Shown: positions 33,761 to 51,921 of the stretch, piece after piece
How positions within the stretch are numbered: the first letter of the stretch is position 1
Layout: every line of letters begins with the position of its first letter
NCBI RefSeq assembly: GCF_001026695.1
Contig: NZ_LDNB01000002.1
Location: forward strand, 280,360 to 344,359
Direction of reading: 5' to 3'
DNA from: Neobacillus vireti
Lineage (GTDB): Bacteria; Bacillota; Bacilli; Bacillales; Cytobacillaceae
DNA: 64,000 bases
Made by a program: the position numbers and the translations under genes
Notes under the pieces: generated by a model
Database searches by the model: none
What the model was told of the DNA's origin: nothing
What the model saw: the letters and a program-made list of their open reading frames with translations, nothing else

Positions 33761-33947
33761 AGCCGTGTTAAAGAACATTGTTGATTTTGAGCACAATGTT
33801 GATTGTAGTGGAAGGCGCGAGACTCCTGCGGGAGCAGCGGGACAGGTGAGACCCCGCAGGCGCGCAATTCGCCGAGGAGGCTCACCGCCCGCCCCGCGGA
33901 AAGCGAAGCGCCTGGAACGGAGATCAACATTCACTTTTAACATAACC
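33761..33947 (+). repeat. MITE-like element, family A, copy between dapH and dapL
   Basis: A 187-bp copy of the family. Ends are AGCCGTGTTAAA and TTTTAACATAACC, decayed versions of the terminal inverted repeat. Inside are AATGTTGATT/ATCAACATT inner repeats, CTCCTGCGGGAG, and the GC-rich block with GGCGCGCAATTCGCC. The flanking octamers (ATAGAAAA, TATAAATA) do not match, so this is probably an old insertion. It ends about 8 bp before the dapL ribosome site, leaving almost no original promoter sequence. ORFs through it are spurious. Confidence 0.85.
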
Positions 33948-46734: not shown

Positions 46735-48150
46735 ATGGTAGTTGGAGATTTTCCTATTGAAACGGATACAATAGTCATCGGTGCAGGTCCGGGAGGGTAT
46801 GTGGCAGCGATACGGGCTGCGCAGCTCGGACAAAAAGTAACAATTGTAGAAAAGGAATATGTAGGCGGCGTTTGTTTAAATGTTGGCTGCATTCCTTCTA
46901 AGGCGTTAATTGCAGCCGGCCATCGCTACGAAACAGCGGTTCATTCTGAGGCATTCGGGATTACGGCTGAAAATGTAAAGGTTGACTTTTCCAAGGTTCA
47001 AGAATTTAAAGCCGGAATTGTGAAGAAATTAACGGGCGGCGTGGAAGGTCTTTTAAAAGGAAATAAAGTAGATATTGTACGCGGTGAAGCATATTTTGTT
47101 GATGCTAATACACTAAGAGTGATGGATGAAAATTCAGCGCAGACGTATACCTTTAAAAATGCGATCATTGCAACAGGATCTCGCCCGATTGAACTTCCAG
47201 CCTTTAAATATTCAAAACGTGTGCTTAATTCTACCGGTGCACTTGACTTAGCGGATATTCCCCAAAAAATCGTCGTAATCGGCGGCGGGGTAATCGGAAT
47301 TGAGCTTGGTGGTGCCTATGCAAACTTTGGTTCTCAAGTAACCATCGTAGAGGGCGCAGATGAAATTTTAGGTCTTGGCGTTTTTGATAAGCAAATGGCT
47401 GCCCTTGTTAAGCGAAGCATGAAGAAAAAGGGTGCAGAATTCTATACGAAAGCATTGGCTAAGGGTGTCGAAGAAACTGAAAACGGTGTGATTGTAACAT
47501 TCGAATCAAAAGGCGAAGAGAAGAAAATCGAAGCTGATTACGTATTTGTAATGGTTGGTCGCCGTCCTAACACTGATGAAATGGGACTTGAACAAGTTGG
47601 TGTGAAATTGAGTGACCGCGGCTTGATTGAAATTGACAAGCAATGCCGTACAAATATTAGTAATATTTATGCCATTGGTGATGTTGTTCAAGGTCCTCAA
47701 TTAGCGCATAAAGCGTCATATGAAGCAAAAATTGCTGCCGAAGCGATTGCCGGACATTCATCTGTTATTGACTACTTAGGTATTCCAGCAGTTGTCTTCT
47801 CTGAACCTGAACTAGCTTCAGTTGGGTATACTGAAACACAAGCGAAAGAAGAAGGGATCACAGTGAATGCTGCTAAATTCCCATTTGCAGCAAATGGCCG
47901 TGCATTATCACTAGACAGCGGTGATGGATTCTTAAAATTAATCACGCGTAAAGAAGACGGTCTTGTGATAGGAGCGCAGATTGCTGGTGCGAGTGCATCC
48001 GATATGATTGCAGAATTAGGTCTAGCAATTGAAGCGGGTATGACAGCTGAAGATCTTGCGATGACGATCCATGCCCATCCAACACTAGGTGAAATTACAA
48101 TGGAAGCAGCCGAAGTAGCCCTTGGCAGCCCAATCCATATTATGAAATAG
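46735..48150 (+). CDS. pdhD: Dihydrolipoamide dehydrogenase (E3)
   Basis: E3 reoxidises lipoamide and makes NADH. The 471-aa flavoprotein has the FAD motif [19 protein letters not shown], the redox disulfide C47-x4-C52 in [12 protein letters not shown], an NAD motif [13 protein letters not shown], and the C-terminal HAHPTLGE with the catalytic histidine. Its last codons read ATG AAA TAG; the G of this stop is the first base of a MITE-like element. The same ATGAAATA octamer, followed by A, reappears after the element, showing that the ancestral stop was TAA. The protein sequence is unchanged. Confidence 0.97.
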
Positions 48151-48339
48151 GCTGTGTTAAACCGTATATTTTTGATTTTGACTACAATGTTGATTGAAGT
48201 GGAAGGAGCGAGACTCCTGCGGGAGCAGCGGGACAGGTGAGACCCCGCAGGCGCTTTAGCGCCGAGGAGGCTCACCGCCCGCCCCGCGGAAAGCGAAGCG
48301 CCTGGAACGGAAATCAACATTCACTTTTTTAACGCAGCC
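48150..48339 (+). repeat. MITE-like element, family A, inserted in the pdhD stop codon
   Basis: A 190-bp element with ends GGCTGTGTTAAA and TTTTTTAACGCAGCC (reverse complement GGCTGCGTTAAAAAA). A perfect 8-bp target duplication, ATGAAATA, flanks it (48142-48149 and 48340-48347). Internal structure: AATGTTGATT/AATCAACATT inner repeats, CTCCTGCGGGAG hairpin, GGTGAG/CTCACC pair and central GGCGCTTTAGCGCC hairpin. It has no transposase, so mobility would need an enzyme in trans. Confidence 0.92.
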
Positions 48340-48350
48340 ATGAAATAAAG

Positions 48351-48390
48351 AAAAAAAGTCCTTTTCGAAAAAACGGAAAGGACTTTTTTT
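48351..48390 (+). terminator. Terminator of the pdh operon, displaced by the MITE
   Basis: AGTCCTTTTCG and CGGAAAGGACT pair (one G-T), followed by T residues. In the pre-insertion sequence it would lie within 10 bp of the pdhD stop; now it is about 200 bp downstream. Confidence 0.85.
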
Positions 48391-48515
48391 ATAAAAAGCG
48401 AATTGTATAAACTGAAGGATATAAAAACTAACCTAACTGACTAGTTTAATGCATATACTTACAACACGAAATCTCTTTGTTTTTTAAGAACAATGTATTT
48501 TGAGTGGTGATAAAT

Positions 48516-50023: not shown

Positions 50024-50211
50024 GGCTTTGTTAGAAAAGAATGTTGATTTCCGTTCCGGGGGCTTCGCTTTCCGCGGGGCGGGCGGTGAGCCTCCTCGGC
50101 GCTAAAGCGCCTGCGGGGTCTCACCTGTCCCTCCCGCAGGAGTCTCGCCCCCTCCACTCCAATCAACATTGTGATCAAAATCAACAATATTCTTTAAAAC
50201 AGCCTTTAGCC
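50024..50211 (-). repeat. MITE-like element, family A, between SR1 and the end of speA
   Basis: A reverse-oriented copy. The left border is GGCTTTGTTAGAAA; the right border is either ACAGCC at 50204 or the second GCC at 50211. With the longer version the flanks are TTTATTTA and TTTATTTT (7 of 8), a probable but imperfect target duplication. It begins immediately after the SR1 terminator and ends one base before the speA stop codon, so it may supply the speA transcription end. Long frames through it are spurious. Confidence 0.85.
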
Positions 50212-50212
50212 T

Positions 50213-51685
50213 TTATTTTATAGCTTTATACTCTTTAATGACATGGATTGTTTTGATTTCATCGTCTTCGGGTCCTTGGACAGGTAAGCCGGCTTCAAGG
50301 TTTTTACGAATATAATGAAGATTTTCCTGTGTAATAATCTCACCGGGAATAAAAATTGGAATTCCAGGCGGGTAAACCATAATAAATTCAGCAATGATTC
50401 TGCCTTCAGATTCTTCAAAAGGAATAACTTCTGTCTCAGCATAAAAAGCATCTCTTGGAGTTAGGGCAAGAACAGGAATTTCTGGAAGGAGAACCTCCAC
50501 CGGTTCAAACTTTCCAGGACGATGTTTACATTCGTCGGCCAATTCCTTTAAGGCATTTACTAAAAGGTCTGCCTCAACTTCTGTGTCCCCAATTGTGATA
50601 ATACAAAGGATGTTGTATAAGTCTGATAATTCCACTTCGATATTATGTCTTTCTCGCAGCCACTTTTCTACATCATACCCAGTTAAGCCTAATTCCTTGA
50701 CAGAAATAATTAGTTTAGTCGGGTCATAATCAAAGGTTGCTTTAGAACCTAAAATTTCTTCGCCAATACAATTGAGATGATCAATCTCATTAATTCTTTT
50801 GCGGATAGACTGGGCAACTTGAATCGTCCTATCAATTAACTTTTTGCCTTTTGTTGCGAGCTGCTTACGGGCAACATCAAGAGAAGCAAGCAATAAATAG
50901 GAGGTCGACGTTGTAGTCAGCATGCTTAAAATCGATTGGACATGCTTCGCTGAAACAAGCCCTTCTTTTACATTTAGAATGGAGCTTTGTGTCATGGAAC
51001 CGCCAAGTTTATGGACACTTGTTGCTGCCATATCTGCCCCGGCCTGCATTGCTGAAAGCGGGAGCTCGTCATGAAAATGGATATGAACTCCGTGAGCTTC
51101 ATCGACAAGGACGGGAACATTATATGAATGGGCGATTTCGACAATTTTCTTTAAATCAGCAGATATACCAAAATAAGTAGGATTAATAACTAATACACCT
51201 TTAGCATCAGGGTGCTGCTGAAGTGCTCTTTCCACAGATTCAGTAGTAATCCCATGGGAAATTCCTAAATCTATATCGATTTCCGGATGAATGAATACCG
51301 GGATCGATCCGGAAAAGACAATCGCAGACATAACCGATTTATGAACATTTCTTGGCACAATGATTTTCTCACCTGGTCCACAAACGGCCATCACCATGGC
51401 AATAATGGCACCGCTTGTCCCTTGTACAGAAAAGAATGTGCGGTCGGCGCCAAAAGCTTCAGCAGCTAAATCTTGCGCCTGTTTAATGATTCCCTTCGGC
51501 TGGTGAAGATCATCAAGGGGTCCGATATTAATTAAGTCGATAGATAGGGCATTATCGCCAATAAATTCACGGAATTCAGGGTCAATTCCAGCTCCCTTTT
51601 TGTGCCCGGGGATATGGAATTGAATCGGATTTCTCTTTGCATGGGCTAATAAGCCGCTAAATAACGGTGTTTGATATTGTGACAA
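50213..51685 (-). CDS. speA: Arginine decarboxylase (biosynthetic, aspartate-aminotransferase fold)
   Basis: SpeA makes agmatine from arginine for polyamine synthesis. The 490-aa PLP enzyme belongs to the Orn/Lys/Arg decarboxylase class I family, with the N-terminal IQFHIPGHKKGAG, VDEAHGVHIHFHDELPLSAMQ and the PLP lysine in TSVHKLGGSMTQSS (about residue 226). The start is TTG 51685 (MSQYQTPLF), 9 bases behind AGAGGTG and giving the B. subtilis length and N-terminus; the frame to GTG 51697 overlaps that site. Family A repeats flank both ends, one within 50 bp of the start codon. Confidence 0.95.
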   Translation of the reverse strand: MSQYQTPLFSGLLAHAKRNPIQFHIPGHKKGAGIDPEFREFIGDNALSIDLINIGPLDDLHQPKGIIKQAQDLAAEAFGADRTFFSVQGTSGAIIAMVMAVCGPGEKIIVPRNVHKSVMSAIVFSGSIPVFIHPEIDIDLGISHGITTESVERALQQHPDAKGVLVINPTYFGISADLKKIVEIAHSYNVPVLVDEAHGVHIHFHDELPLSAMQAGADMAATSVHKLGGSMTQSSILNVKEGLVSAKHVQSILSMLTTTSTSYLLLASLDVARKQLATKGKKLIDRTIQVAQSIRKRINEIDHLNCIGEEILGSKATFDYDPTKLIISVKELGLTGYDVEKWLRERHNIEVELSDLYNILCIITIGDTEVEADLLVNALKELADECKHRPGKFEPVEVLLPEIPVLALTPRDAFYAETEVIPFEESEGRIIAEFIMVYPPGIPIFIPGEIITQENLHYIRKNLEAGLPVQGPEDDEIKTIHVIKEYKAIK

Positions 51686-51722: not shown

Positions 51723-51921
51723 TAATTTAAGGCTGTGTTAAAATACATTGTTGATTTTGAGCACAATGTTGATTGGAGTGGAAGGCGCGAGACTCCTGCG
51801 GGAGCAGCGGGACAGACCACGCAGGCGCGCAATTCGCCGAGGAGGCTCACCGCCCGCCCCGCGAACCGCTCGCGCCTGGAACGGAAATCAACATTCACTT
51901 TTAACAGAGCCTAATTTAAAA
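51723..51921 (+). repeat. MITE-like element, family A, upstream of speA, with 8-bp target duplication
   Basis: The element proper is 51731-51913 (183 bp), ends GGCTGTGTTAAAA and TTTTAACAGAGCC, which are inverted repeats of each other with one mismatch in 13. TAATTTAA flanks it directly on both sides (51723-51730 and 51914-51921). Internally it lacks about nine bases of the GGTGAGACC block found in other copies and reads CGCGAACCGCTCGCG near its end. It lies in the 375-bp gap between divergent speA and the nitronate-monooxygenase-like gene. Confidence 0.92.

Follow-up and report, generated by a model that had tools for sequence, protein, structure and literature searches.

A MITE-like element in the stop codon of pdhD in Neobacillus vireti and the recurrence of rebuilt stop codons in its repeat family

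How can a central metabolic gene acquire a mobile repeat within its stop codon while the encoded protein stays the same, and are stop codons targets of such repeats or places where insertions are simply tolerated? The question is raised by a 64,000-nucleotide stretch of the Neobacillus vireti genome (assembly GCF_001026695.1, contig NZ_LDNB01000002.1, positions 280,360 to 344,359 of the forward strand; hereafter the window), in which a 190-base-pair (bp) element resembling a miniature inverted-repeat transposable element (MITE) interrupts the stop codon of pdhD, the last gene of the pdhABCD operon, downstream of the genes for E1 alpha, E1 beta, and E2 (Pfam assignments). We conclude that this is very probably a non-autonomous, MITE-like insertion into an A/T-rich site across the pdhD stop, which changed TAA to TAG, left the protein the same, was near-neutral, and needs no targeting of stop codons to explain it.

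The element, the stop codon, and the empty site

Two identical copies of the octamer ATGAAATA flank the element (Table 1), a match expected by chance with a probability of about 2e-5 (arithmetic from the GC content of the window). The element is bounded by 12-bp terminal inverted repeats with one mismatch, and its ends take the general form GGCTGTGTTAAAG. Because the boundary falls after the TA of the left duplication copy and the element starts with G, pdhD still stops at the same residue, now with TAG. At the far side, the right duplication copy and the A that follows it (48340-48348) read ATG AAA TAA. The terminator stem consequently lies 200 nucleotides past the stop and 2 nucleotides past the relic stop, a shift of 198 bp (190 + 8).

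The end of pdhD was found in 60 of the 61 genomes of the genus (G046 gave no match), and its stop codon was read in all 60. Closest to the window is G023, with 92% DNA identity across the end of pdhD; it carries the predicted empty site, ATGAAATAAAG followed by the terminator, with TAA as its stop; its pdhD end reads ATGAAATAAAGAAAAAATAAAGTCCTTTTCG (in fuller reading CATATAATGAAA TAA AGAAAAAATAAAGTCCTTTTCG), and the final residues, IHIMK, are the same as in the window. The same empty site is present in N. novalis NBRC 102450, one of 80 named pdhD loci that overlap with the 60-genome set. The element is missing from this position in 59 of the 60 genomes. Stop codons in these genomes comprise 50 TAA and 10 TAG (one of the latter being the window's own), and those of the named loci 73 TAA, 5 TAG, and 1 TGA, with one gene running off its record; two named loci (L379 and L436) stop early, apparently through a frameshift.

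The initial annotation of this locus, made from the letters of the window, had proposed an 8-bp duplication on both flanks, a TAG formed from the left TA and the first G of the element, an ancestral ATG AAA TAA at the right copy, and an unchanged enzyme with an altered stop type, and had predicted that a related genome without the element would show the empty site; all of these are borne out by the readings above. Its bounds (48142-48347) do contain an element but take in both duplications as well, and the terminator was displaced as proposed, by the length of element plus duplication rather than by approximately 190 bp.

Predicted folding (-104.6 kcal/mol, z -8.88) gives the element and the terminator each a strong structure of its own, the displaced terminator still folding alone as a hairpin beside the element. 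A comparable AAGTCC...GGACTT hairpin lies 3' of pdhD in most of the 60 genus genomes displayed. A consensus terminator scan did not list the 48351-48390 hairpin, and an Rfam search of 47900-48500 returned nothing above the gathering score.

Table 1. Features of the pdhD locus, other family copies in the window, and stop codons rebuilt by related copies in other genomes (ORF, open reading frame).
Feature	Position or locus	Strand	Basis or detail
pdhD (dihydrolipoamide dehydrogenase, E3)	46735..48150	+	ORF of 471 amino acids; Pfam Pyr_redox_2 and Pyr_redox_dim
Left copy of 8-bp target duplication	48142..48149	+	ATGAAATA
Chimaeric stop codon TA/G (TA from target, G from element)	48148..48150	+	ORF reading; closest relative has TAA
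MITE-like element, 190 bp	48150..48339	+	Ends and duplication; no transposase gene; longest stop-free stretch 57 codons; folds with z -5.64
Left terminal inverted repeat	48150..48161	+	GGCTGTGTTAAA
Inner inverted repeat around GC-rich core	48186..48321 (arms 48186-48195 and 48312-48321)		AATGTTGATT / AATCAACATT
Right terminal inverted repeat	48328..48339	-	TTTAACGCAGCC on the + strand
Right copy of 8-bp target duplication	48340..48347	+	ATGAAATA
Relic of ancestral TAA stop, now 3' untranslated	48346..48348	+	Matches empty site in G023 and N. novalis
Native operon terminator	48351..48390	+	Inverted repeat; 17-bp stem and T-run
Family copy	33762..33938	+	91% identical over 179 bp
Family copy	50024..50204	-	88% identical
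Family copy	51731..51911	+	Perfect duplication TAATTTAA
Rebuilt stop, HolA-like gene	L155, genome G012		338 amino acids
Rebuilt stop, gene without assigned function	L163, genome G023		288 amino acids
Rebuilt stop, OppF-like gene	L168, genome G033		360 amino acids

Related repeats also lie near pdhD in other genomes. In one (L383, also L052; G051), a diverged relative of the core (86% over 39-170) starts 24 nucleotides past the pdhD TAA and before the terminator; it looks like a second, independent entry into this stop-terminator gap, in a different species. The L383 record is titled Paenibacillus sp. BSR1-1 and is probably misnamed, its pdhD being 94% identical to the Neobacillus-type protein. 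In another (L386; G030), a full-length element copy (88%) in reverse orientation occupies 454-639 nucleotides past the pdhD stop. Within the window, open frames running through the repeat at 47772-48320 (-) and 50041-50223 (+) begin with the identical peptide MLISVPGASLSAGRAVSLLGAKAPAGSHLS and are likely to give rise to spurious annotated proteins.

The repeat family and other rebuilt stop codons

Searches of the own genome (G000) returned 40 scored matches and 127 first-look candidates. The window and 85 loci of the own genome supplied a set of 52 copies in which both ends are present and at least 6 of the 8 duplicated bases match; 57 rows were reduced to 53 by dropping two alternative pairings (L100, L115) and two chance-like long pairs (L097, L135), and then to 52 by dropping L110, a 1139-bp pair of terminal inverted repeats enclosing small ORFs, putatively translations of a tRNA cluster, and no transposase ORF of at least 100 amino acids. 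In this set, selected for at least 6/8, duplications are perfect in 24 copies, 7/8 in 18, and 6/8 in 10, and 51 of the 52 copies measure 112-190 bp (mostly 180-190), the other being 276 bp long. Related matches, many of them core-only (about 35-170), occur in 52 of 60 genomes searched, including other families of the order.

With both strands pooled, the 52 copies share a target consisting of a T-run, eight A/T positions, and an A-run. An A comes directly after the duplication at 90 of 104 ends, TA/A is found at 27 of 104, and the first base of the element is G at 28 of 30 TA ends. Given that A nearly always follows the duplication, a TAA stop spanning the boundary normally turns into TAG. TGA cannot be rebuilt in the same way, since T/GG gives TGG, and the expectation in the initial annotation that TGA stops would also be formed therefore fails for a G-first element.

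Rebuilt stops recur outside pdhD. In the own genome, 2 of 53 copies have a gene of at least 80 amino acids whose last base is the first base of the element, namely pdhD and an SDR-type dehydrogenase (L122, 261 amino acids). The TA-plus-end pattern is present in 47 of the 61 genus genomes, and a sample of 30 loci with 32 junctions (one per genome where given) yielded three long ORFs ended by the junction (Table 1); the names SDR, HolA, and OppF come from reading translations, Pfam having been run for the pdh genes and one transposase. Genome G013, which has the most exact TA-plus-end junctions among the genomes listed (50), contained no rebuilt stop among 42 junctions (41 of them new), bringing the overall count to 5 of 103 distinct TA junctions examined. 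In those G013 copies that were read, many ends and duplications are near-perfect, and the abundance perhaps reflects a recent expansion.

All five genes have a perfect far duplication copy with A as the next base, which makes TAA the former stop in each. Relatives provide further evidence for two of them: the counterpart of L163 ends in TAA without an element in the own genome and in four others, and element-free orthologue ends of L122 (n=8; the weak matches L318 and L319 are not orthologous ends and were excluded) comprise 7 TAA and 1 TAG. The L122 element is common to G000 and G023 and hence predates their split. For the HolA-like and OppF-like genes, an ancestral TAA is suggested by the far duplication copy; the search of relatives for the OppF empty site returned distant homologues or paralogues only (best non-self match 74% over part).

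Elsewhere in the own genome, at L002, a gene's TAA ends exactly at the element, and the two duplication copies differ by one base, which leaves the ancestral stop ambiguous. At L138 (1390-1575), likewise in the own genome, the element extends an rRNA methyltransferase-like ORF, whose C-terminus is LKGSVKAHS as against a reconstructed LKK, with the stop inside the element.

Insertion, tolerance, and competing explanations

The chemistry of the transposition and the persistence of the insertion, as we infer them, would run as follows. A non-autonomous DNA transposon would have inserted, in cut-and-paste or replicative fashion, at an A/T-rich site over the stop codon and the A-run before the terminator; a transposase, most likely supplied in trans, would have cut the target with an 8-bp stagger at ATGAAATA, and repair would have produced the direct repeat. 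With the boundary after TA and an element beginning with G, the stop became TA/G behind the same terminal residue, and the old TAA and the terminator moved 198 bp downstream; element, duplication, empty site, and unchanged C-terminus are shown directly by the sequences. The insertion would have persisted since it was close to neutral. Recurrence elsewhere would reflect the target pattern, with its A beside the duplication, together with removal of insertions within genes, a combination that would let stops be rebuilt repeatedly without any stop-codon targeting.

Placement of the copies was compared with chance using 341,120 bases of own-genome sequence and heuristic gene calls. Stop-rebuilding sites make up 0.46% of non-coding positions under a uniform null and 0.30% when weighted by the target matrix (0.19-0.36% in a first, window-only version). 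Without the index case, the own genome has 1 in 51 (P 0.21 uniform, 0.14 matrix); with it, 2 in 52 (P 0.024 or 0.011), the index case having itself prompted the search. Across TA ends without the index case, 4 of 102 compare with 2.7 expected (P 0.28) under the uniform null. Recurrence is present, and an excess over chance is unproven. The proposal in the initial annotation that stops could be rebuilt repeatedly is upheld by four further genes, in the own and three other genomes, while its wider suggestion of a general way for such repeats to settle is not supported as it was put, given the low overall count, the absence of cases in G013, and an excess that depends on the null. Rebuilt stops look like rare, tolerated luck rather than the product of a dedicated mechanism.

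About 53% of the weight of the target matrix falls in coding ORFs. In the 52 reconstructed empty sites we found 11 ORF overlaps in nine copies, mostly with ORF ends or short ORFs, and no copy deep within a long well-supported ORF, a pattern most simply read as selection against the disruption of genes. A strong hairpin lies within 45 nucleotides of the duplication in 20 of 52 copies. Among non-coding control points the counts are 20 of 140 when matrix-matched (Fisher P 5e-4) and 119 of 3000 when random (P 1e-14); per A-rich end, the figures are 18 of 87 and 87 of 2000 controls. These comparisons use a self-made, uncalibrated hairpin score and threshold, controls from the same loci, and matrix matching only above a matrix threshold. 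The placement can be accounted for by coding avoidance together with the surplus next to terminator-like hairpins, with no stop-specific device.

The hairpin excess is also what an active preference would produce. The family may be steered to the 3' ends of genes by terminators or their DNA structure, in which case stop hits would be a by-product of such targeting and not of selection alone; a hairpin following the far copy in three of the five rebuilt-stop genes (pdhD, HolA, and OppF) points the same way. We regard this as possible but doubtful, given the limits of the score and controls, and given that terminator-adjacent sites may be simply the most neutral ones left by selection.

It is quite unlikely that the insertion has been kept as a 3' untranslated hairpin that alters stability or termination of the pdh message. 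The two strong predicted structures and the diverged core relative in the corresponding gap of G051 fit such a role, but any element with inverted ends should fold strongly, and nearly all of the genomes compared do without the element here.

We find it similarly improbable, and if anything more so, that the element has ends adapted to harmless insertion at stops or gene ends, with G first for TA/G and early stops in the other frames. Translation that crosses into the element after one base of a codon meets a stop 3 residues later at 94 of 104 ends, and translation arriving in phase 0 meets one 7 residues on at 87 of 104, the latter case being in use at L138; the excess of TA ends under the matrix null (4/102) is in keeping with the same idea. 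In the two-base phase without TA, however, the frame continues for a median of 27 residues and stays open over the whole length at 38 of 104 ends; A/T-rich DNA often has a stop within a few codons, and neither the uniform null, nor the own genome without pdhD, nor G013 shows an excess. No better prospects can be given to the view that a target ending beside an A-run, combined with a G-first element, makes the family 'stop-safe', landing in TAA at gene ends and always rebuilding TAG, with this compatibility favoured and the repeat spreading preferentially through stop-terminator gaps. That the pdhD TAG arose by point mutation and the octamers flank the element by chance can be practically dismissed, element-free TAG in other genomes notwithstanding, in view of the exact empty site in the nearest relative and an exact 8-bp match in a family that duplicates 8 bp elsewhere.

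Several observations weigh against an untargeted, near-neutral insertion as we reconstruct it. Of the 59 other genus genomes, 9 have a TAG stop and no element there within the 72 nucleotides displayed; mutation thus produces TAG as well, and this stop alone is not diagnostic. The initial annotation had named TAG in close element-free relatives as telling against the insertion, and it is found only in more distant relatives, the nearest having TAA. The 4 of 102 TA ends compare with only 0.44 expected under the matrix null (P 0.001), which leaves room for a real bias. The overlapped ORFs L103, L112, and L117 are putative genes only. Finally, the own genome yielded no transposase carrying such ends among the families sought, which makes the mechanism of transposition a proposed one.

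Mobilization and relation to known repeats

Transposases with PF13610, PF01610, and PF00872 (IS240-domain, ISL3, and IS256/mutator) were sought in the 61 genus genomes. The own genome has none from these three families, the only ones searched, and among 30 loci inspected per family no transposase had matching ends and a clean duplication, a weak lead in G024 apart. This lead is an IS6-like transposase ORF between similar ends (L183 1248-2298; NCBIfam IS6 model, E 7e-21, below cut-off); it is a weak, degenerate candidate in another species, its two copies having 60 bp of flanking sequence in common and lacking a clean duplication. Members of the IS6 (IS26/IS240) family are characterized by 8-bp duplications and GG-first ends. 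The repeat shares both traits, but its own genome has no IS240-domain match and the G024 candidate has no clean duplication. ISL3-family insertion sequences (IS) of about 1.74 kb in G039 sit inside repeat copies, near one end, in at least three places (L209 610-2347, L227, L218 949-2685), and were rejected as partners since they do not mobilize the repeat, which seems to be a hot-spot for them.

Another short mobile-like repeat of the Bacillaceae is bcr1 of the Bacillus cereus group. In Streptococcus pneumoniae, section 9 of Croucher et al. 2011 (PMC3049150) reports that a BOX repeat encodes the stop codon of 36 genes with no strong evidence of truncation; BOX elements are likewise short, non-autonomous repeats that supply stops at gene 3' ends, in another organism and, in that section, without a base-level account of duplication and empty site (sequences were not compared). 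QMITE1 and QMITE2 of Coxiella burnetii are inserted at the 3' ends of functional genes with protein size little changed, as reported in PMC5896051, and one of these families is an IS hot-spot, as the Neobacillus repeat seems to be in G039; the C-terminal residues there come from the element, whereas the pdhD protein is unchanged (sequences again not compared). MITEAba12 is described in PMC6382973 as having produced a premature stop in one gene. The main text of a 2024 MITE review (PMC10969869) contains neither 'stop codon' nor 'Bacillus', and the Neobacillus repeat is not described in the passages seen of PMC2229807, PMC2267715, and PMC6807381. Literature searches, in partial listings with most subscription papers missing, turned up no description of this repeat or of TA/G stop rebuilding. 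While the kind of event is already known, the family and the worked cases of TA/A becoming TA/G appear to be new within the literature searched.

The pdhD locus offers a base-level example, with empty sites in relatives, of how a gene of central metabolism can receive a mobile repeat in its stop codon and keep its protein unaltered. The target pattern explains the change from TAA to TAG, which matters when relatives differ in a stop codon and when gene ends beside repeats are annotated. The hairpin excess, if it holds, would make terminator-directed insertion testable in the Neobacillus repeat family.
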